A stretch of 64,000 nt of DNA from Nostoc sp. CENA543. Lineage in GTDB: Bacteria; Cyanobacteriota; Cyanobacteriia; Cyanobacteriales; Nostocaceae. A program made the translations under genes and the position numbers. Positions 8,752 to 17,671 of the stretch are shown one piece after another. The notes under the pieces were generated by a model, which saw only the letters and a program-made list of their open reading frames with translations, made no database searches and was not told the DNA's origin. Position 1 is the stretch's first letter. Every line of letters starts with the position of its first letter. The stretch is from the NCBI RefSeq assembly GCF_002896875.1, contig NZ_CP023278.1:4472501-4536500 (forward strand), written 5' to 3'.

Positions 8752-8845
8752 ACGATTACGGGATTTTATCACTTTGGTCACTGGCGATCGCAATTCTAGC
8801 TGTTACCCTTAGTAACTATACAGGTTGCATTGTCTAAGCAAGTTT

Positions 8846-9829
8846 ATGTTTTCTCCTGTTGAATCCCCAATTGTCTGTCGTCTACCGCGCGTTGCTATTA
8901 TCGGTGCTGGTAGGGTGGGTAGTACGTTAGCCCAACGCATTGCTGAGAAAAATCTGGCGGATGTGGTGTTATTAGATATTGTTGAGGGAATACCTCAAGG
9001 TTTAGCACTGGATTTATTAGAAGCTAGGGGTATTGAATTACATAATCGTGAGATTATCGGCACAAATAATTATGCAGATACAGCAGATTCGCAAATTGTG
9101 GTGATTACCGCCGGATTTCCCCGCAAAACAGGGATGAGTCGGGATGATTTGCTCAAAACCAATGCCAAGATTGTGGTTGAAGCTGCTAAAAATGCGATCG
9201 CCTATTCTCCTAATGCTATTTTTATCGTAGTCACCAATCCTTTAGATGTGATGACTTATCTAGCTTGGGAAGCTACAGGTTTACCGCGAAATAGAATTAT
9301 GGGGATGGCTGGGGTACTAGACTCAGCACGGTTTGAAGCTTTTATCGCCTTGGAATTAGGGGTATTACCTGCTGATGTCAAGGCGATGGTGTTAGGTAGT
9401 CACGGGGATTTGATGGTTCCGTTATCTCGTTACGCCACCGTTAATGGTATCCCCATTACAGAATTATTAGATGCAGAAACAATTGCGCGCTTAGTAGAAA
9501 GGACTCGCAATGGTGGTGCAGAAATTGTGGAATTAATGCAGACTGGCGGTGCATTTTTCGCGCCAGCTTCCGCGACAAGTTTGATGGTGGAATCGATTGT
9601 ATTGAATCAGTCACGGTTGTTACCTGTGGCGGCGCATCTGCAAGGTGAATATGGTTTAAAAGATGTGGTGATTGGTGTACCTTGTCGTTTGGGTTCTCAT
9701 GGAATTGAGAGTATTTTAGAATTAAATCTGAGTGATTCTGAAAAAGAAGCTTTGCATATTTCGGCTCAAGCTGTACGGAAAAATATCGAGCGATCGCAAG
9801 AAATTTTAGCTGCAACAAGTTCGATATAG
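8846..9829 (+). CDS. mdh: Malate dehydrogenase (LDH-like type)
   Basis: NAD-dependent malate/oxaloacetate interconversion. The product of about 327 residues has a Rossmann GAGRVG at 20-25, an Asp after the second strand (VVLLDIVEG) suggesting NAD use, the substrate-loop sequence RKTGMSRDDLLKTN, VTNPLDVMTYLAW, and the catalytic His in GSHGDLMVPLSRY at about residue 185. The loop with Arg-Lys fits malate better than lactate. The ATG at 8846 is chosen over a TTG at 8825. A hairpin at 9840-9866 follows. Confidence 0.9.
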   Translation: MFSPVESPIVCRLPRVAIIGAGRVGSTLAQRIAEKNLADVVLLDIVEGIPQGLALDLLEARGIELHNREIIGTNNYADTADSQIVVITAGFPRKTGMSRDDLLKTNAKIVVEAAKNAIAYSPNAIFIVVTNPLDVMTYLAWEATGLPRNRIMGMAGVLDSARFEAFIALELGVLPADVKAMVLGSHGDLMVPLSRYATVNGIPITELLDAETIARLVERTRNGGAEIVELMQTGGAFFAPASATSLMVESIVLNQSRLLPVAAHLQGEYGLKDVVIGVPCRLGSHGIESILELNLSDSEKEALHISAQAVRKNIERSQEILAATSSI

Positions 9830-9916: not shown

Positions 9917-10180
9917 TTATTCGTCTTCGTCTTCATCATCGTGGCGGTATTGTCGAGAACGGCGACGACCAGAATCTTCCTCATCATCTTCATCATCATA
10001 ACGGTCTTCACGGGAACTGCGGCGACTATAATTTTCTTCATCTTCATCATCATAACGGTCTTCGCCGTCTCTTCTTCCTCTGCGTCCCCGATATTCCCGA
10101 TAATCTGCTTCTTCCTCACGTTCTTCGCGCCTTGAACCACTCATAAAATCCTGAGCTTTTCGTAAAAAATCACCCACCAT
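9917..10180 (-). CDS. Small highly charged low-complexity protein
   Basis: An 87-residue protein starting MVGDFLRKAQDFMSGS. The rest is nearly all Arg, Glu, Asp, Tyr and Ser, with the unit RYDDED appearing three times among RRSSRE-like blocks. The first 16 residues could be a helix; the remainder is probably disordered and might bind nucleic acid or protein. I know no function. The ATG at 10180 has GAGGAAA seven bases upstream and is preferred to an earlier codon at 10231. Confidence 0.6.
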   Translation of the reverse strand: MVGDFLRKAQDFMSGSRREEREEEADYREYRGRRGRRDGEDRYDDEDEENYSRRSSREDRYDDEDDEEDSGRRRSRQYRHDDEDEDE

Positions 10181-10637
10181 AATTGATTTCCTCGCTGAGA
10201 TATTGCAGTAGGATAAACACCTATTTTGCAAAAATTTGTAGTTACCCCTGTTATGATGAGTCGGTTTTTTTGTTCTTCCGTCCTACTTTTGAAATACTTT
10301 GCGATCGTTCTTGAGAAATATACTTTTAGTTGGATTATATGTGCAGAAAAATAATAAGTGTTCTCTAGAAATGATCTTTACAAACAATAATTTGACGTAA
10401 AACATACTGTGGAATTAGTAGCATAATTTACAGTGGTATCATAACAAAACTATCTATTTAGTGTATTTTCAATAACATAATAAGCATATTTATATTTGGT
10501 CGCTTGTGCCTTATTTATTGATAAAATAGCAATTTGTCTAAAATTTCCAGAAAATTTTCAATGCTACATAAATAGTATATGCAATAAAAAGCAAATTATA
10601 ATATTGTCAGAATTATCAGTTAAATAGGCTACATCAC
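10181..10637. other. AT-rich intergenic region before the accessory cassette
   Basis: About 450 bases with no gene, heptamer array or element found. Base composition is clearly more AT-rich than upstream. It should hold the promoter of the three-gene cassette. Confidence 0.6.
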
Positions 10638-11303
10638 ATGGGTTCAGGCAAAGATAGCTTACAGAGTGCCAAAACTAAAACTCGTCTTCTGCTGGCTTTA
10701 TGGGATTTGGGAGGAACACAGCAGGAAGTAAAGAAAGGGCAACTCAACAAGCGCATTTTATCGAAGGGCAAGAAAGCCGCAGATTATCAAGGTGTATTTG
10801 AGGAATTACAGAAACAAGGGACGATATCGATTTCAAAAACAGGATATTCTCTGACATCGCCCAAGGGTTTGAAGGTGCTGAGTGACGGTTTGAGAAGTGG
10901 TGAGTTTAAGTTTGATGGCACTATTGTTGGCACTTGGGCGGCGAATGCGTTGGTGAAGTGGATTGGCCAAATTGATATTGCAGAGGTTAGCACATCTACA
11001 CCAGCTAATGGGAGCAGTGCGATCGCTTCTTATGAAGAGTTCAAGTCAGTGGTGTTGGAAGTCTACGACAAGTTGAACCAGAATTACAACTTTAATGATT
11101 TAGTACCAATTTATCGGCTCAGAAGAGAAATAGGTGATCGCGTTAGTCGTGAAAGTTTCAATAATTGGCTACTTGAAATACAGACTGACGACATACTTCA
11201 GCTAATTGCTGGTGAAATTCCAGACTTCACTCCTGATAAACGTGAAGATTCAATAACCATACCTGAAGTTGGATTGCGTTCTTATGCCAAGAAATTGAGT
11301 TGA
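10638..11303 (+). CDS. Cassette gene 1: winged-helix-like protein of unknown function
   Basis: I do not recognise a named family. The 221-residue protein seems to have two winged-helix-like parts. The first (about 15-85) runs from RLLLALWDLGGTQQEVKKGQ through FEELQKQGTISISKTGYSLT, typical of a helix-turn-helix with a wing. The second (about 130-220) has DLVPIYRLRREIGDRVSRES then FNNWLLEIQTDDILQLI, like the wHTH modules seen beside AAA+ ATPases in accessory loci. The stop codon nearly abuts the ATPase frame, so it is probably co-transcribed with the next two genes. Its role may be DNA binding or adaptor; that is inference. Confidence 0.65.
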   Translation: MGSGKDSLQSAKTKTRLLLALWDLGGTQQEVKKGQLNKRILSKGKKAADYQGVFEELQKQGTISISKTGYSLTSPKGLKVLSDGLRSGEFKFDGTIVGTWAANALVKWIGQIDIAEVSTSTPANGSSAIASYEEFKSVVLEVYDKLNQNYNFNDLVPIYRLRREIGDRVSRESFNNWLLEIQTDDILQLIAGEIPDFTPDKREDSITIPEVGLRSYAKKLS

Positions 11304-11353
11304 TTAGATTGTCCTCAGATACTTTGAAGTTCCTCACACTAAATAGAATTGTT

Positions 11354-13330
11354 ATGACAAATAATCCTGTTTCTTCAATAGAAGTTGTCAACGCTGCTAT
11401 TCAAAGCCAAAATCCATTCATTAATGCTGGAATTGCTAAAGAGCAAGATGTTTGGGGAAGAAAGCTTCCTGATGTAACTACGCTCAATTCCCATGCTTCT
11501 GACACAGTTTTTCAGGCGATTGATCTGGTAAATAAAAGTACATATAGTCAAGATAAAGTAACATCAATAGCCATAACGGCACAACAAGGAGTCGGTAAAA
11601 CTCATCTTCTCAGCCGTATTCGTCATCGATTAGAGCAGGAAGGTGGTGCTTTATTTATATATGCTAGCGTCAATAACTATACTGACTTGAACTTAGTCAA
11701 GTACCAATTTCAGCAAACTTTGGCAGATAGTCTGAGCAAAACTGGTAGCCAAAAGGTTATGCAGTGGCAAGAAGTAGCCGCAGCTATGGCAAACGAAGGT
11801 TTTAAATCAATCAATGCTAATGCTCCTAGTCTTTCTGCATGGGATCTACTCGAAAGATTTGATAAAGTCTATGCAAATTGGTTGGCTAAAAATAAAAATT
11901 TGATGGACAAACTGACTAGTGAAGTACTCAAAACAAAACCAAATGCAGATCCTTATATCGTTAGAGCTATTTTGTGGACTCTTTCTGATACCCAAGCAAC
12001 CTTTGCAATCAAATGGCTCTCTGGTGAAGAATTAGCAAAATCAAATGCTGATTTCTTGGGTTTACCAAATGCTGTTAAAACAAATCAAGATAGAGAGGCT
12101 GAAGCTCTTAAGAATATTCAACAGATATTAAATTTAGTTAGTTACTATAATTCAGTAGTTATTTGTTTTGATGAAATAGATGTAAAAAATAATGCTAATG
12201 ATGATGGTTTGCCTACAGAAATTGTAATTGCTAATTTAGTCAAAATCCTTCATGATACCCTTGAAAACTCCGAATTAGGCAAAGGTATTGTAATTATTAC
12301 AGTTATGCTACCAGAAACCTGGACAGATAAAATACTAAACATACCAGGAGGTACACCTGCTAGAGCATCAAAATATACAGGTACAAAACCAATAGATTTA
12401 AGAAATATTGATAGTAATTCTCTTGTTGAATTGGTAAATCTTTGGTTACAAGATTTCTACAATACAAATAGTTTATTACCTCCTCATCCTTTGTACCCAT
12501 TTGAAGAAATTAAGCTGAAAGAATATGGCAAACGAAGACCAACTATTAGAGAGGCGTTGAAGTGGTGTGCAGAAAACTTTAAAGCTCCAGGAGATATTTT
12601 ACCAGATGACCCATATGAAAGATTTGAACTTGCTTTGAATAGAGAAATTACAACAGATAAAGAAAATTATCTGGATGATAATTCTTTAATCGCTGAAGCT
12701 TTACGCTTAGGTTTTGAAACGCTAAAAGGAGAAATATTAGAAGGGGAAACATCAACAGGCGAAAAATTAAACCAATTAGAGATAATTGATGTTGAAGAAG
12801 TGCCAGCTAAATCACAAAATAACGGTTATATTAATTTCAAAGTAGTTACCAGAGAAAATGAAAAAATTATTAAAATTGGATTAGCTGTCATCCAACCACC
12901 TAGATCAGTACTATCAGGATTAAATCGACTAACTCAATACCAAACTTTCGATATAAATCGTGGTTGTTTATTGCGTTCTAAATCTCGAAAAATTAATAAA
13001 AAAGGAGAGGCTTATCAATTACTTAAGCATCTAGTATCAAACTTGGGTGGTGAATGGGTAGATTTAAAGGCAGAAGAAATCAAACCCATTATTGATATAT
13101 ATTATGTTTATCAAAAACGTGATAACTACCGAATTAACGATGAGCAGTTCATAACATTTGCAAAAAAATTAACTCGTACAAATCCTTTATTACTAGAGAT
13201 TTTGAGTTCTCCTTGTGGACAAGTTGATGAAGAAACTATTGAAGCAGAAGAACTGTTAAATGACTTTCTCAACCCCTCAGTTATAGAAGAAACAGATGAT
13301 TCGGATGATCTGAGTGAGTTGTTTACATAA
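11354..13330 (+). CDS. Cassette gene 2: large P-loop ATPase
   Basis: A protein of about 658 residues with Walker A QQGVGKTHLLSRIR at about 78-90 and a Walker B-like VVICFDEIDVK at about 267-277, giving an AAA+/STAND-type ATPase core. The N-terminal NPFINAGIAKEQDVWGRKLP resembles the entry region of ATPases found in defence loci. Residues after about 450 form a separate C-terminal domain with INRGCLLRSKSRKIN-like sequence and an acidic tail. An upstream TTG at 11300 overlaps the previous stop (TTGA) and could give translational coupling; ATG 11354 is chosen by codon type. Only two bases separate it from the nuclease gene. Exact function is unknown. Confidence 0.75.
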   Translation: MTNNPVSSIEVVNAAIQSQNPFINAGIAKEQDVWGRKLPDVTTLNSHASDTVFQAIDLVNKSTYSQDKVTSIAITAQQGVGKTHLLSRIRHRLEQEGGALFIYASVNNYTDLNLVKYQFQQTLADSLSKTGSQKVMQWQEVAAAMANEGFKSINANAPSLSAWDLLERFDKVYANWLAKNKNLMDKLTSEVLKTKPNADPYIVRAILWTLSDTQATFAIKWLSGEELAKSNADFLGLPNAVKTNQDREAEALKNIQQILNLVSYYNSVVICFDEIDVKNNANDDGLPTEIVIANLVKILHDTLENSELGKGIVIITVMLPETWTDKILNIPGGTPARASKYTGTKPIDLRNIDSNSLVELVNLWLQDFYNTNSLLPPHPLYPFEEIKLKEYGKRRPTIREALKWCAENFKAPGDILPDDPYERFELALNREITTDKENYLDDNSLIAEALRLGFETLKGEILEGETSTGEKLNQLEIIDVEEVPAKSQNNGYINFKVVTRENEKIIKIGLAVIQPPRSVLSGLNRLTQYQTFDINRGCLLRSKSRKINKKGEAYQLLKHLVSNLGGEWVDLKAEEIKPIIDIYYVYQKRDNYRINDEQFITFAKKLTRTNPLLLEILSSPCGQVDEETIEAEELLNDFLNPSVIEETDDSDDLSELFT

Positions 13331-13332
13331 GT

Positions 13333-14784
13333 ATGAGCGAATCAATCTTACTTCAAACAAGTTTGTTGCTACCTGCTCCTGATATAGCAGCTTTAATTGA
13401 AGGCAGAACTATCACAGCTATGCCTCGGAAATTCATCCACCCAGGGCAAAAATTTGCTCTCTGTCCAACTAATATTGTGACACTATCAAATGAAAAATTC
13501 TATCGTTCAAATTTTTTACATATTGTCCAAAGTGTTACTGCTAACTTAAATTCTAAAACAGCCTTAATTACAGCTTGGGCGAAATGTGAACTGTGTCAAA
13601 TGCTAAATGCTCCAGAATCATTTGATGCTTTGTCTCAATTAACTATCTGGACAAAAGAAGCATTAGAAGAAAATCTCAAACAAAGACCCTATATCTTTTT
13701 AGCTTACTTGCGTGTTTATTTACTACCAGAAGCACAGGAGATTGATCTACAAAATCAAATACGCCAATTTATACCTTTGCCACATTCTCTAACTGTTACT
13801 GAAGCAGACCCAATATTAACTGATCGCACTTTCGCACAACGCAAACAACAACTGCAAAACTTAGAACCTCCAAAGCATCCTGAATTAGAAGAATTGCAGA
13901 GTATTCTATCCCAACTTGCAATTAACAACCCAGCCGCCCAAGAATTAAATGATGATATCCAAATATTTTTAGGTTGGAATAATACTAAGCATATTCAACC
14001 AATAAATACAGATTTAGCTTGGATAAATAATATTGCATCTCTGGGTAATCGAAGCCTAGAACTAGATGAGAAAAAAAGTAATTACCAAGCTGGAACAGAT
14101 TTTGAGAATATCACACGCCAAAGCTTAGATTTTTTAGGGTTTAAAGTTGAGGATGCTTTCAAAGGAGGTGCTGGCGGTTTAGATTTATTTTGTTCAAAAC
14201 CATACCCTCTAGTTTGTGAATGTAAAGCAGGTAAACTGATTCCTAGCCACACAGTACAAGAACTGATTAAGTTGGGTGGTATGCACTTAGGTGCAGATAA
14301 ATTCCTACACTCGGCTAAATTGATAATTGGCCCTGGTAATCCCTCAACAGATACTCTAAAAGCCGCACAACAATGGAAAGTAAGTATTATTAATGCTATG
14401 ACTTTACAAAAGCTAGTTGAATTAAAAGCAAAATATCCTGGTGCTATCAACTTAATTGAACTTAAGCAATATTTAGAACCTGGACAAATTGACGATAAGA
14501 TTGATGAGTATATTGCTCAGACTGAACAGCAGATTAAATTGCGATCGCACGTTATCCAAGTATTAAAAAATTATCTTGAACTTACCAAATACGATCGTGC
14601 TGGAGTTGAAGCACTTCATGCTGCATATATGACTTCTTATCCTCCTACATCCCTAGAATCTAGGCAATTACACGAAATTTTAATAGAACTTTCATCGCCA
14701 TTAACAGGGTACTTAGGGCGAATTAAAAGTAATGATTGGAGAAGCGATCGCTTTTACTATTTACGTGACTTACCACTTAACTAA
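13333..14784 (+). CDS. Cassette gene 3: DUF1802-like protein with PD-(D/E)XK nuclease domain
   Basis: A 483-residue protein. Residues about 10-150 resemble DUF1802: IEGRTITAMPRKF, FALCPTN, then ALITAWAKCELC and AYLRVYLLPEA. Residues about 250-350 carry the restriction-endonuclease-like pattern: a Glu in GTDFENITRQSLDFLGFKV, Asp in GGAGGLDLF, and Glu-x-Lys in LVCECKAGK. This is the layout of a metal-dependent DNA nuclease such as the Mrr/HJC-like group. The remaining C-terminal 130 residues look helical. It starts two bases after the ATPase stop, so the two are almost certainly made together. A role in DNA defence is inferred from domain content only. Confidence 0.75.
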   Translation: MSESILLQTSLLLPAPDIAALIEGRTITAMPRKFIHPGQKFALCPTNIVTLSNEKFYRSNFLHIVQSVTANLNSKTALITAWAKCELCQMLNAPESFDALSQLTIWTKEALEENLKQRPYIFLAYLRVYLLPEAQEIDLQNQIRQFIPLPHSLTVTEADPILTDRTFAQRKQQLQNLEPPKHPELEELQSILSQLAINNPAAQELNDDIQIFLGWNNTKHIQPINTDLAWINNIASLGNRSLELDEKKSNYQAGTDFENITRQSLDFLGFKVEDAFKGGAGGLDLFCSKPYPLVCECKAGKLIPSHTVQELIKLGGMHLGADKFLHSAKLIIGPGNPSTDTLKAAQQWKVSIINAMTLQKLVELKAKYPGAINLIELKQYLEPGQIDDKIDEYIAQTEQQIKLRSHVIQVLKNYLELTKYDRAGVEALHAAYMTSYPPTSLESRQLHEILIELSSPLTGYLGRIKSNDWRSDRFYYLRDLPLN

Positions 14785-15096
14785 AGATTAGTTTTAAGAG
14801 TACCAGTGTTGAGATAATTTTGAATAAAGAAAAGTAACAATAACCAAAGAGCGATCGCATTTCCTCGAATGTTAAGCAAAGTAACGGGAAAACAGCGATC
14901 GCCTTTTTTTGTCGGAAAGTTTTATACGTAAATATAACTACTAGTTCTGAATATTACGTTAACTTTATACCTATGTCCTGAGTTGTATACTTTACAAAAA
15001 CTTTTAAATTTATACTGTCGAACAAGTAAGGATATACTGATTACACTAATAGTTAAGAAAACACTTGTAAATTTAAAATCAGAGGTAAAATGGAAT
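14785..15096. other. Intergenic region after the cassette
   Basis: AT-rich spacer with two HIP1 octamers (near 14850 and 14896). No gene or terminator hairpin is convincing. An open frame extends upstream of 15097 to 14983 but lacks a ribosome-binding site. Confidence 0.5.
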
Positions 15097-15753
15097 ATGT
15101 ATTACCAAATTTGGGCGTTCTTTCTCCAAGAAGACGAATACCAGCAGTGGAGAAAAAATACAAAACTTAATAATAATTATAATAGATTAACATGGCAAAA
15201 AATCATTGATTTTTTCGCTTCTGTAGAAGATAACTTCCTTGTCAAGAGTCAATTGGGAGAAGCAAAAAATCCAGAGCATTTTATTAGCATTGCAACTGAA
15301 AATGGCTATCACTTAATCTTAGAAGAACTAGCTTGGTTTCTTGTCACCAGAAAGCATATTTGGACATTTCTTGATTTCGCACAAAAAACCCCATCTGTCA
15401 AAGACAAACTATTAGCATCTAAAACTCCTCAACAATTTGTACAAATAGCGGCTAATTATGGTTATCACTTTACCGTCGATGAATTAGCCTGGCTACTCAC
15501 AGAAATTAAATCATCACCAGAATTAGTACCAATTGATAATAGTGTGGGAGAAGTTGATACTGTCTCTAACTACGGCAAAATCGAAATAGGATATTGGATT
15601 TGGTTAGCGGAAGAATGGGGAATCATAGCACCTTTTTGTCATAGAGAACCACCACTGAACTTTATGTCTCAGTATGGTGACAATCCTTTTTTGCCAGATC
15701 GCTGTTTCTTGCCCAAAAGCTACTTTAATCAGCACTTAATTAGCAATAGATAG
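15097..15753 (+). CDS. Protein with two tandem Nif11-like domains
   Basis: A 218-residue protein. Residues about 35-82 and 88-136 are two copies of a Nif11-like module: FFASVEDNFLVKSQLGEAKN then ATENGYHLILEELAW, and FAQKTPSVKDKLLASKTPQQ then AANYGYHFTVDELAWLL. Nif11 domains occur in nitrogen-fixation-associated proteins and as leader peptides of ribosomal natural products. The C-terminal 70 residues are aromatic-rich and lack the usual Gly-Gly cleavage site plus short Cys-rich core, so a precursor role is unlikely. No modification enzyme is nearby. The ATG at 15097 has AGAGG about 11 bases upstream. Confidence 0.65.
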   Translation: MYYQIWAFFLQEDEYQQWRKNTKLNNNYNRLTWQKIIDFFASVEDNFLVKSQLGEAKNPEHFISIATENGYHLILEELAWFLVTRKHIWTFLDFAQKTPSVKDKLLASKTPQQFVQIAANYGYHFTVDELAWLLTEIKSSPELVPIDNSVGEVDTVSNYGKIEIGYWIWLAEEWGIIAPFCHREPPLNFMSQYGDNPFLPDRCFLPKSYFNQHLISNR

Positions 15754-16084: not shown

Positions 16085-17671
16085 TTAGCCTAGAGAAACT
16101 TTTAAACTGCTGGGTTGAGCAAGATTTCCCTGCAAAACTACACCGCGTTGATTAGCGTACAGGTGACGCAAAATCTTGTAAATAGCTTCAACTTGATCAG
16201 CTGCACCTAATTTATCTGCAATTTCTGCCAAAGAGAGGGCTGATTTTTCTGTTTGCAGTAAGTCTACTACCTTAGCTTGCAAGTCCAAAATAGCCGCAGC
16301 CGCTTTTTTACCAGCTTCTACCCCTGGCTGGTGGTAAGCGTTAATGTTAACCAAGCTAGCGTATAAACCTACAGCCCGTTCATACAAAGCGACTAATGCG
16401 CCGACAGTCCTAGCGTTAACTTGGGGAATGGTGACAGTGATTGAGTCACGCTGATTTTCATACAAAGCTTGGCGAGTTCCTTGTAAGAAGCCAGAGAGAT
16501 AGTCACCGGAAGTTACACCAGGATCAATCTCTGGAGATGCGCCGTTGCGGTCTTCCAAAACTTCGATTAAGGTAGCAAAGAAATTGGGTACACCTTCACG
16601 CAATTGCTGTACATAGGCGTGTTGGTCGGTTGAACCCTTGTTACCATAAACGGCAATACCTTGATAAACAACATTGCCATCTAAGTCTTTTTCTTTACCC
16701 AAGGATTCCATCACTAGCTGTTGTAAGTAGCGGCTAAACAACAGCAAGCTGTCCTTGTAGGGTAAGACAACCATGTCTTTTTCACCCTTACCGTTACCCG
16801 CAAAATACCAAGACAACGCCAACAACGCCGCCGGGTTATTTTTCACATCACTGACGCGGGTAGCGTCGTCCATTTCTTTTGCACCTTCTAGCATGGTGCG
16901 GACATCAATCCCTTGCAAGGCGGCGGGAACTAACCCAACAGTAGACATTTCCGAAGTCCGTCCGCCTACCCAATCATACATAGGGAATCTAGCCAGCCAA
17001 CCTTCAGCTTTTGCTAATTTATCCAGATTACTATCAGCACTAGTAATAGCTACTGCATATTGAGCAAAATCTAAATTTTGTCCAGCATAGGCTTTCTTGA
17101 CTTCAATCATGCCGTTACGAGGTTCTGGTGTGCCTCCAGATTTGGAGATCACTAGTACCAAGGTGCTAGCAAGATGATTTCTCAGTTGAGTGAGAACCCG
17201 ATCAATACCGGCGGGATCGGTGTTGTCGATAAAATGAATTTTTAGGGGCGGAAAGTCTGGGGCGAGGGCTTCAGCAACAAATTGAGGGCCAAGGGCAGAA
17301 CCACCTATGCCAATAGAAATAATATCTGTGAAGCGGTTTGCTTTAGGTGGATGAATTGCACCAGTGTGAACTTTTTCGGCAAAGGCTTCCACTTGTTCTA
17401 AGGTTTGCACAATTTCTTGTGTCAGTTCTGGAGTGGGGGCTAAATCTGGGTTTCTTAGCCAGTAGTGTCCCACCATGCGGTTCTCATCAGGATTGGCGAT
17501 CGCACCCTGCTCCAATTGAGCCATCTCCGCAAACGCTTTGTCAAACTTCGGCTGCAACGACTTCACGAAGGCATCATCAAAACGCATCCGACTTACATCT
17601 AGATACAGTCCTAATCCCTCGTGGAAATATAACCAATCTTGGTATCGTTGCCAAAGTGCCTTCGCATCCAT
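16085..17671 (-). CDS. pgi: Glucose-6-phosphate isomerase
   Basis: Interconverts glucose-6-phosphate and fructose-6-phosphate in glycolysis, gluconeogenesis and the pentose phosphate cycle. The 528-residue protein has [19 protein letters not shown], the sugar-phosphate-binding [22 protein letters not shown] and the [14 protein letters not shown] segment with the catalytic His. The length is normal for the cyanobacterial form. It stands alone on the minus strand; the MITE-like copy B lies just downstream. Confidence 0.96.

Follow-up and report, generated by a model that had tools for sequence, protein, structure and literature searches.

Which function is served by three closely packed genes that lie between mdh and pgi in the filamentous cyanobacterium Nostoc sp. 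CENA543? The genes, here called the trio, occupy an AT-rich block of the window, the whole stretch of 64,000 nt that was analysed (NZ_CP023278.1, positions 4,472,501–4,536,500, forward strand), in the order g1, g2, g3:

10638..11303, + strand: g1, winged-helix protein of 221 amino acids (aa)
11300..13330, + strand: g2, P-loop ATPase of the KAP / AAA_16 / Orc-Cdc6-like type
13333..14784, + strand: g3, DUF1802 nuclease

The true start of g2 is likely the ATG at 11354. An initial annotation had placed three same-strand genes in this AT-rich block, flanked by mdh and pgi, and the layout is confirmed. We consider the trio likely to act in defence, as a restriction system that depends on ATP and probably senses modification. 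Such a system would fit the combination of a reader-type domain, a restriction-type nuclease, an ATPase and several winged helices, together with fast evolution, the exchange of recognition modules around nearly invariant catalytic residues and the defence-type genes found at places that have lost the trio.

The N-terminal region of g3 matches DUF1802 of Pfam with 110 bits and has an ASCH/PUA-like fold (residues ~5–159), as judged from the predicted model and a fold search. It is followed by a PD-(D/E)XK domain (residues ~223–399; E258, D284, E296 and K298), which by fold search is like FokI/Nt.BspD6I and also resembles HindIII, and by a C-terminal winged helix in the predicted model (residues 400–483). 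g3 has the core fold of the PD-(D/E)XK superfamily with its D...ExK site, and a restriction endonuclease (REase) domain and an ASCH domain are fused in one protein. The complete D...ExK site that had been noticed earlier is borne out by this fold and by the near invariance of D284, E296 and K298, which are kept in 127–128 of 128 de-duplicated trios. The idea that other effectors share the C-terminal motif of g3 was rejected, as the six motif-bearing frames of less than 420 aa in the loci scanned are shortened, broken or remnant g3.

The Walker A (GVGKTH) and Walker B (FDE) motifs of g2, and its match to KAP_NTPase (PF07693; 27.5 bits, above the Pfam gathering threshold of 20), uphold the earlier assignment of a P-loop ATPase. 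AAA_16 and AAA_22 match below the Pfam cut-off; among 52 g2 proteins, AAA_16 matches 42, AAA_22 38, KAP 27 and BrxC_BrxD 2 at E≤0.001. Two further matches of g2 were set aside as chance: Csx19 in PADLOC (E 0.0029), which spans just 39 residues, and a YTH domain, the best g2 row in the PDB profile search (71 profile positions, E 0.008). The PDB sequence search with profiles of g1, g2 and g3 gave nothing usable. g1 is conserved across a 45-row alignment and has no Pfam, PADLOC or NCBIfam match at E≤1. Its N-terminal winged helix (residues ~1–112), a constant anchor, was recovered by fold search with the predicted model, in agreement with one of the two winged-helix-like regions previously proposed for g1; the other, the C-terminal half (residues ~128–221) that is inherited with g2, is assigned from predicted helix/strand order, and a third is not seen in the 221 aa.

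In the mechanism that we propose, g1 and g2 would bind DNA via their winged helices and through a ring or clamp formed by the Orc/Cdc6- or KAP-like ATPase. In g3, the ASCH/PUA-like DUF1802 domain would inspect the nucleic acid, most likely for a modified or wrongly modified base, and the state of the ATPase together with the reader would license the FokI-like nuclease to cut. It is inferred here that the substrate is DNA, that DUF1802 reads bases, that ATP controls cleavage and that a phage or plasmid is the target.

The three genes travel together. Taking g3 genes of at least 300 aa as full-length, the fetched loci contain 165, of which 153 are preceded by both g1 and g2 in the same orientation; the rest have only g2 (6), only g1 (1) or neither (5), and incomplete trios lie near contig ends in at least L065, L117, L122 and L190. 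Some genomes are represented twice in this count, and merging g3 at 97% identity gives 141 complete trios of 151; by both counts the three gene kinds share one operon. The neighbourhood comparison suggested by the initial annotation thus returns the same trio, with homologues that are not scattered apart. Tandem trios of diverged sequence occur in L066 (three, one with a run of N in g1) and L063 (two). At E≤0.001, g3 matches 116 of the 195 genomes in the order, a count that takes in remnants and standalone DUF1802 proteins, and 78 of the 386 in the phylum; in 54 of these 78 the best match reaches E≤1e-90. That stricter level is reached in 32 of the 42 genomes of the window's family and is not reached in 10. 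Among 252 relatives in named genomes, the best 80 all bear cyanobacterial titles, and 17 viral pattern matches to g3 turned out not to be relatives.

The place of the trio beside mdh can be compared between genomes. In the window it is bordered by:

8825..9829, + strand: mdh (malate dehydrogenase), left border of the exchange slot; context, outside the system
16085..17671, − strand: presumably pgi (glucose-6-phosphate isomerase), right border of the slot in the window's lineage; context

Over 132 loci the commonest neighbours are pgi (44), a mutM-like gene (43) and mdh (39). About one third of these loci are at the mdh place and the others lie elsewhere, for example beside genes that we take to be folC-like or surE-like. 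The 44 mdh neighbourhoods examined (40 new ones, from 79 mdh places found, and 4 earlier ones) comprise 17 with a complete trio, 1 with a truncated trio and 26 without (one cut by a contig end), and 10 of the 26 retain pgi in the slot or trio remnants. These 10 were compared together with L094 and L197, which were found via remnants and whose position beside mdh is not established. A large foreign defence-type gene is present in 6 of the 12 trio-less places: a PDC-S28 match in L196 (PADLOC, E 2e-276), a BnzB match in L197 (PADLOC, E 1e-61), a retron-type reverse transcriptase (E 1e-137) with a Schlafen/AlbA protein in L214, a helicase nearest DpdE/DrmD (E 4e-17) in L244, a NACHT protein (Pfam match only) in L220, and in L094 a gene whose first residues resemble the start of the L197 BnzB gene. 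L246 and L244 are from one genus (g199) and have downstream genes in common; the former holds the trio, the latter the helicase and a g3 scar.

As a control, 123 proteins of at least 150 aa from 20 random 9-kb regions in 20 genomes of the family were scanned with PADLOC. At E≤1e-50 about 5 of the 123 match (strict bound 13), to TPR, TnpB-like Cas12f and a methylase, compared with 3 of 7 proteins from the trio-less places. The seven were chosen as foreign-looking, with smaller recurrent neighbours and the L233 and L094 genes left out. Given this control and the hand-picked sample, the apparent enrichment of defence genes at trio-less places is suggestive rather than proven.

Loss of the trio leaves scars. 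A g3 remnant runs from profile position 455–467 to 480–482 at 8 of the 12 places (L093, L094, L196, L197, L214, L221, L233 and L244), longer ones start at 422 (L198) and 371 (L203), and none is seen at L208 or L220. The start of g1 is retained to position 91–112 at L094, L197, L198 and L233. A similar scar lies elsewhere in L195 (454–482), and in L193 and L194 extra copies lie downstream of a complete g3. At 16–17 bits, the scars of L214 and L221 and two of the three in L233 are the weakest and are marginal.

The trio evolves fast relative to the flanking genes, and its parts differ in how far they follow them. Pairwise identities were compared by Spearman correlation over 30 loci that have mdh as well as pgi; among the halves of these two genes the values are 0.67–0.85. 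Residues 1–112 of g1 correlate with these halves at 0.51–0.74, compared with −0.02 to −0.19 for g2, 0.01–0.08 for the ASCH part, 0.22–0.28 for the winged helix of g3 and 0.26–0.36 for the nuclease. The halves of g2 correlate with each other at 0.84, and g2 correlates with the C-terminal part of g1 at 0.61–0.62 and with the ASCH part at 0.36; over 128 loci its correlations are 0.58–0.60 with the ASCH part, 0.22 with the nuclease and 0.21 with the winged helix. Among 122 pairs of high identity in the nuclease (≥0.85) and in g1 1–112 (≥0.80), 86 have g2 below 0.55 (50 loci; the pairs are non-independent). L141 (Anabaena catenula) and L171 (Trichormus sp.) illustrate the pattern, with DNA identity of 93–99% upstream and over most of the first half of g1, 42–67% from late g1 to early g3, and 86–98% over most of the nuclease. 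In 35 pairs selected for discordance, with no locus in common, 105 breakpoints were placed: 32 in g1, 5 in g2 and 68 in g3, where they cluster at residues 142–186, 404–414 (17 pairs at 404–413) and 445–452. These comparisons indicate that at the mdh place the block of g1 C-terminal part, g2 and ASCH domain, the nuclease and the last winged helix are exchanged separately, around nearly invariant catalytic residues.

Apparent exchange could also arise from domains that evolve at differing rates without recombination, as conserved motifs such as g3 449–462 (amino-acid identity 0.88) do make local steps in identity. This explanation is very improbable, since the contrasts persist at four-fold synonymous sites within the same genomes. 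In the 35 discordance-selected pairs, four-fold synonymous identity is 0.82 for g1 1–112 and 0.77 for the nuclease, against 0.44 for g2, 0.41 for g1 195–221 and 0.52 for ASCH 1–140; where the break falls at g3 404–413 (17 pairs) it is 0.80 for the nuclease and 0.29 for the winged helix (62 codons). Reciprocal cases also speak against it, 205 of 382 pairs with g2 identity of at least 0.70 having nuclease identity below 0.60, as do the types of g2 and winged helix, which are spread over an mdh tree (48 de-duplicated loci, 200 label shuffles) almost like shuffled labels. The 8 types of g2 need 23 changes (24.9 when shuffled; 35 of 200 shuffles as low) and the 6 types of winged helix 22 (23.9; 38 of 200), so that neither follows the host tree better than chance. 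The corresponding values are 12 changes against 14.9 (4 of 200) for the 4 nuclease types, 28 against 33.1 (0 of 200) for the 21 ASCH types, and 6, the minimum plus one, against 8.9 (0 of 200) for the 6 types of g1 1–112. The label test for g2 and winged-helix types depends on de-duplication (0 of 200 before, 35 and 38 of 200 after), whereas conservation and breakpoints are barely altered between 128 de-duplicated and 139 trios (35 and 38 disjoint pairs). As judged from these codon comparisons, the blocks differ by replacement, to synonymous saturation, and not by rate.

The function itself admits other explanations, and several observations weigh against restriction. The anti-phage role is putative, as are the Orc/Cdc6 clade of g2 and the presence of an inactive REase towards its C-terminus. 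The ASCH assignment is a fold match at E 2e-3 and ~10% identity, and DUF1802 offers no sequence evidence for base reading. Standalone DUF1802 proteins of ~190–220 aa occur in many cyanobacteria, even where the genome lacks a full g3, and the domain may therefore serve a different role. PADLOC is permissive, with 48 families matching at least one of the 123 random proteins at E≤1e-15, which makes single PADLOC names weak. Finally, part of the lineage keeps the trio at a single position in the chromosome, and the plasmids, phages and viral contigs searched contained no g3, unlike many mobile defence islands. The last two points, together with the broad spread through one family (32 of 42 genomes) and the ORC-like winged helix, would suit a host operon for DNA repair or genome maintenance that cuts damaged or aberrant DNA and evolves fast by chance. 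We regard such an operon as quite unlikely, because the trio is lost with scars and other defence-type genes in its place, is missing at E≤1e-90 from 10 of 42 family genomes, occurs as diverged tandem copies (L063, L066) and exchanges its recognition modules. A suicide system, in which infection is detected by the ATPase and the cell of the filament is killed as g3 cleaves the host's DNA or RNA, accords with multicellular hosts, with weak matches of g2 to NACHT/STAND-like ATPases and with the ASCH domain nearest in fold, from Zymomonas mobilis, which is reportedly a ribonuclease; it is an unlikely alternative, as a restriction-type fold (FokI/BspD6I/HindIII), several winged helices and swapped recognition parts fit target discrimination better. 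Restriction is preferred. The earlier proposal of a DNA-sensing, possibly anti-phage ATPase directing a nuclease is supported in part: a DNA-acting defence operon of ATPase, adaptor and nuclease is well supported, indirectly, by the linkage (153 of 165), the nearly invariant catalytic residues, fast evolution, exchange of recognition parts and the defence-type genes in the same place.

A further question is whether the exchange uses particular joints. The window contains 54 copies of the HIP1 octamer GCGATCGC, compared with 0.26 expected by chance; its over-representation in cyanobacteria is known (PMC4390886). Three copies lie in the trio, which has no HIP1 between 11027 and 14540:

11019..11026, + strand: HIP1 in g1, residue ~127, near the border of anchor and exchanged block
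14541..14548, + strand: HIP1 in g3, residue ~403, at the border of nuclease and winged helix
14744..14751, + strand: HIP1 in g3, residue ~471, within the 3'-terminal segment left as a scar

In 118 trios with g3 identity below 90%, g1 has 170 copies in 82 kb, chiefly at residues 62–64 (67), 125–128 (51) and 166 (32), and g3 has 308 in 175 kb, chiefly at residues 163 (37), 191 (31), 238 (45), 403 (91) and 471 (82); several of these sites are near module borders. g2 has 8 in 232 kb, compared with ~90 expected at 0.39 per kb, the rate in 35 other genes of the same GC content (0.36–0.38) in the same loci. HIP1 lies within 13 of the 15 remnant segments listed. The median distance from breakpoint to HIP1 is 19.5 residues against 37.8 at random places (0 of 1000 random sets). 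Under circular shifts, the 39 of 68 g3 breakpoints that lie within 10 residues of HIP1 are equalled in 15 of 483 shifts (~3%), and the 17 of 32 in g1 are not unusual (31 of 221 shifts). The coincidence thus appears moderate in g3 and absent in g1, where many breaks (170–193) lie beyond HIP1 sites, and few borders and few HIP1 sites make the effective sample small. As g3 449–462 is conserved as protein, breaks near 450 need no HIP1.

The trio could be a domain-shuffling restriction machine with HIP1 octamers marking, or acting as, recombination joints. The C-terminal part of g1 with g2 and the ASCH domain, the winged helix, and sometimes also the nuclease or another complete defence system, would then be exchanged between fixed ends, the 5' part of g1 and the 3' end of g3. 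We put this forward tentatively, as a rather doubtful idea, made slightly less probable by the circular shifts. If true, HIP1, a long-puzzling cyanobacterial repeat, would be tied, in a way open to testing, to recombination of the homologous or the site-specific kind. If restriction is the right reading of the trio, it would be a common ATP-dependent restriction system of filamentous cyanobacteria with a new reader (DUF1802, ASCH-like), its swapped recognition modules would form a natural library of ready chimaeras for mapping specificity, and the mdh slot may be a place to seek other defence genes.

Several additional features were observed around the trio and its relatives. A Nif11-domain gene (window 14983–15753) lies between the trio and pgi; it persists at some trio-less places (L093, L208, L214, L221) and is therefore apparently independent of the trio. 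Between mdh and the trio is a small, highly charged, repeat-rich open reading frame without a Pfam match (window 9917–10231, − strand), and similar small frames recur at this spot in relatives. A recurrent pair of small genes (~120 and ~105 aa; for example L181 9483–9842 and 9842–10258) adjoins the trio in 27 and 31 of 132 loci and is seen in many mdh–pgi slots, also without the trio; the 120-aa protein has no Pfam match. Genes that we take to be macrodomain-like or ADP-ribosylglycohydrolase-like stand beside g3 in a few loci (L063 12447–13031, L066 17166–17741, L041, L044, L074, L085). Standalone DUF1802 proteins are exemplified, in the phylum search, by G214:C1:1499908 and G222:C1:1411057.

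Longer g2 ATPases (817–954 aa) occur in L051 (5210–7912), L108 (4240–6690) and L052 (4524–7385). A C-terminal SeqA-like DNA-binding domain is matched above the cut-off of 25.5 bits in L051 (29.7) and below it in L108 (23.4 bits) and L052 (E 0.009); in E. coli, the C-terminal domain of SeqA reads GATC methylation. A second, solitary g2-like ATPase gene lies near the trio in L039, L044, L046, L061, L063, L075, L082 and L184, the last with two, one cut by the locus end. In 14 loci full-length g2 outnumbers g3, in some merely since g3 is shortened, broken or absent. That the extra genes are a reservoir of spare alleles was dropped as an idea: several have their closest relatives among the other solitary genes, and among those examined none was seen to be a near copy of another lineage's trio ATPase.

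How does the trio relate to known systems? In PADLOC-DB 2.0.0, g1 and g3 have no match at E≤1 and g2 has just the 39-residue Csx19 match, which makes up no named system, and NCBIfam gives nothing above its cut-offs; the initial annotation's failure to find a named system stands. The PADLOC result speaks, indirectly, against a McrBC-type IV system, which would pair a GTP-specific McrB AAA+ protein with McrC. Its description of the cassette as undescribed-looking was too strong, as one sentence in section 22 of PMC10853773 foresaw such a gene set: operons, given no name there, of an Orc/Cdc6 ATPase, an ASCH-REase and a DndG-like protein with three winged helix-turn-helix (wHTH) domains, predicted as counter-invader systems. 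As far as sequence and fold go, the trio very probably belongs to this class, sharing three gene kinds, the ASCH-REase fusion, a wHTH adaptor, a P-loop ATPase and the predicted role. This likeness is drawn from the published description; PMC10853773 calls its operons mobile neighbourhoods, its main text contains neither "cyanobacteri" nor "Nostoc", and its adaptor has three wHTH domains, compared with one by fold and a second by helix/strand order in g1. ASCH, CDC6, REase and wHTH are also named in PMC12839542, whose ASCH passage concerns another fusion. In the literature searched (most subscription papers and all of bioRxiv lie outside it), we found no name or experiment for the trio, only a soil study for DUF1802, and nothing on the mdh slot, the scars, the module exchange or the HIP1 pattern; these four are additions to a predicted, already foreseen class.

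The window's genome also holds a paralogous operon (L097 6821–12476, G000:C1 ~4735820–4741475), which encodes a wHTH-like protein (282 aa), an AAA ATPase (722 aa, G000:C1:4736703–4738868) and an SspH-like protein of 859 aa with DNA_pol_A_exo1, PDDEXK_1 and FtsK domains. At E≤0.001 its ATPase has matches in 102 of the 148 genomes from the order, distant relatives such as g2 included, often with several adjacent. The set is comparable to the systems of Orc/CDC6, inactive REase and HerA/FtsK (with or without a 3'-5' exonuclease) of PMC10853773. Unlike the trio, it has no DUF1802 nuclease, and the two ATPases are 27% identical over residues 30–400.

Like g3, the Type IV-like EVE-HNH enzyme VcaM4I, as described in PMC7897488, fuses a PUA-like reader to a nuclease. 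By that description, g3 differs in its ASCH-like PUA subfamily, its FokI-like nuclease and its dedicated ATPase and wHTH partners. Type I restriction-modification systems exchange the specificity subunit HsdS. The trio resembles them in one respect, the exchange of recognition parts between constant anchors; it differs from them in having no methyltransferase and in exchanging its ATPase, ASCH-like domain and winged helices, and its nuclease too.

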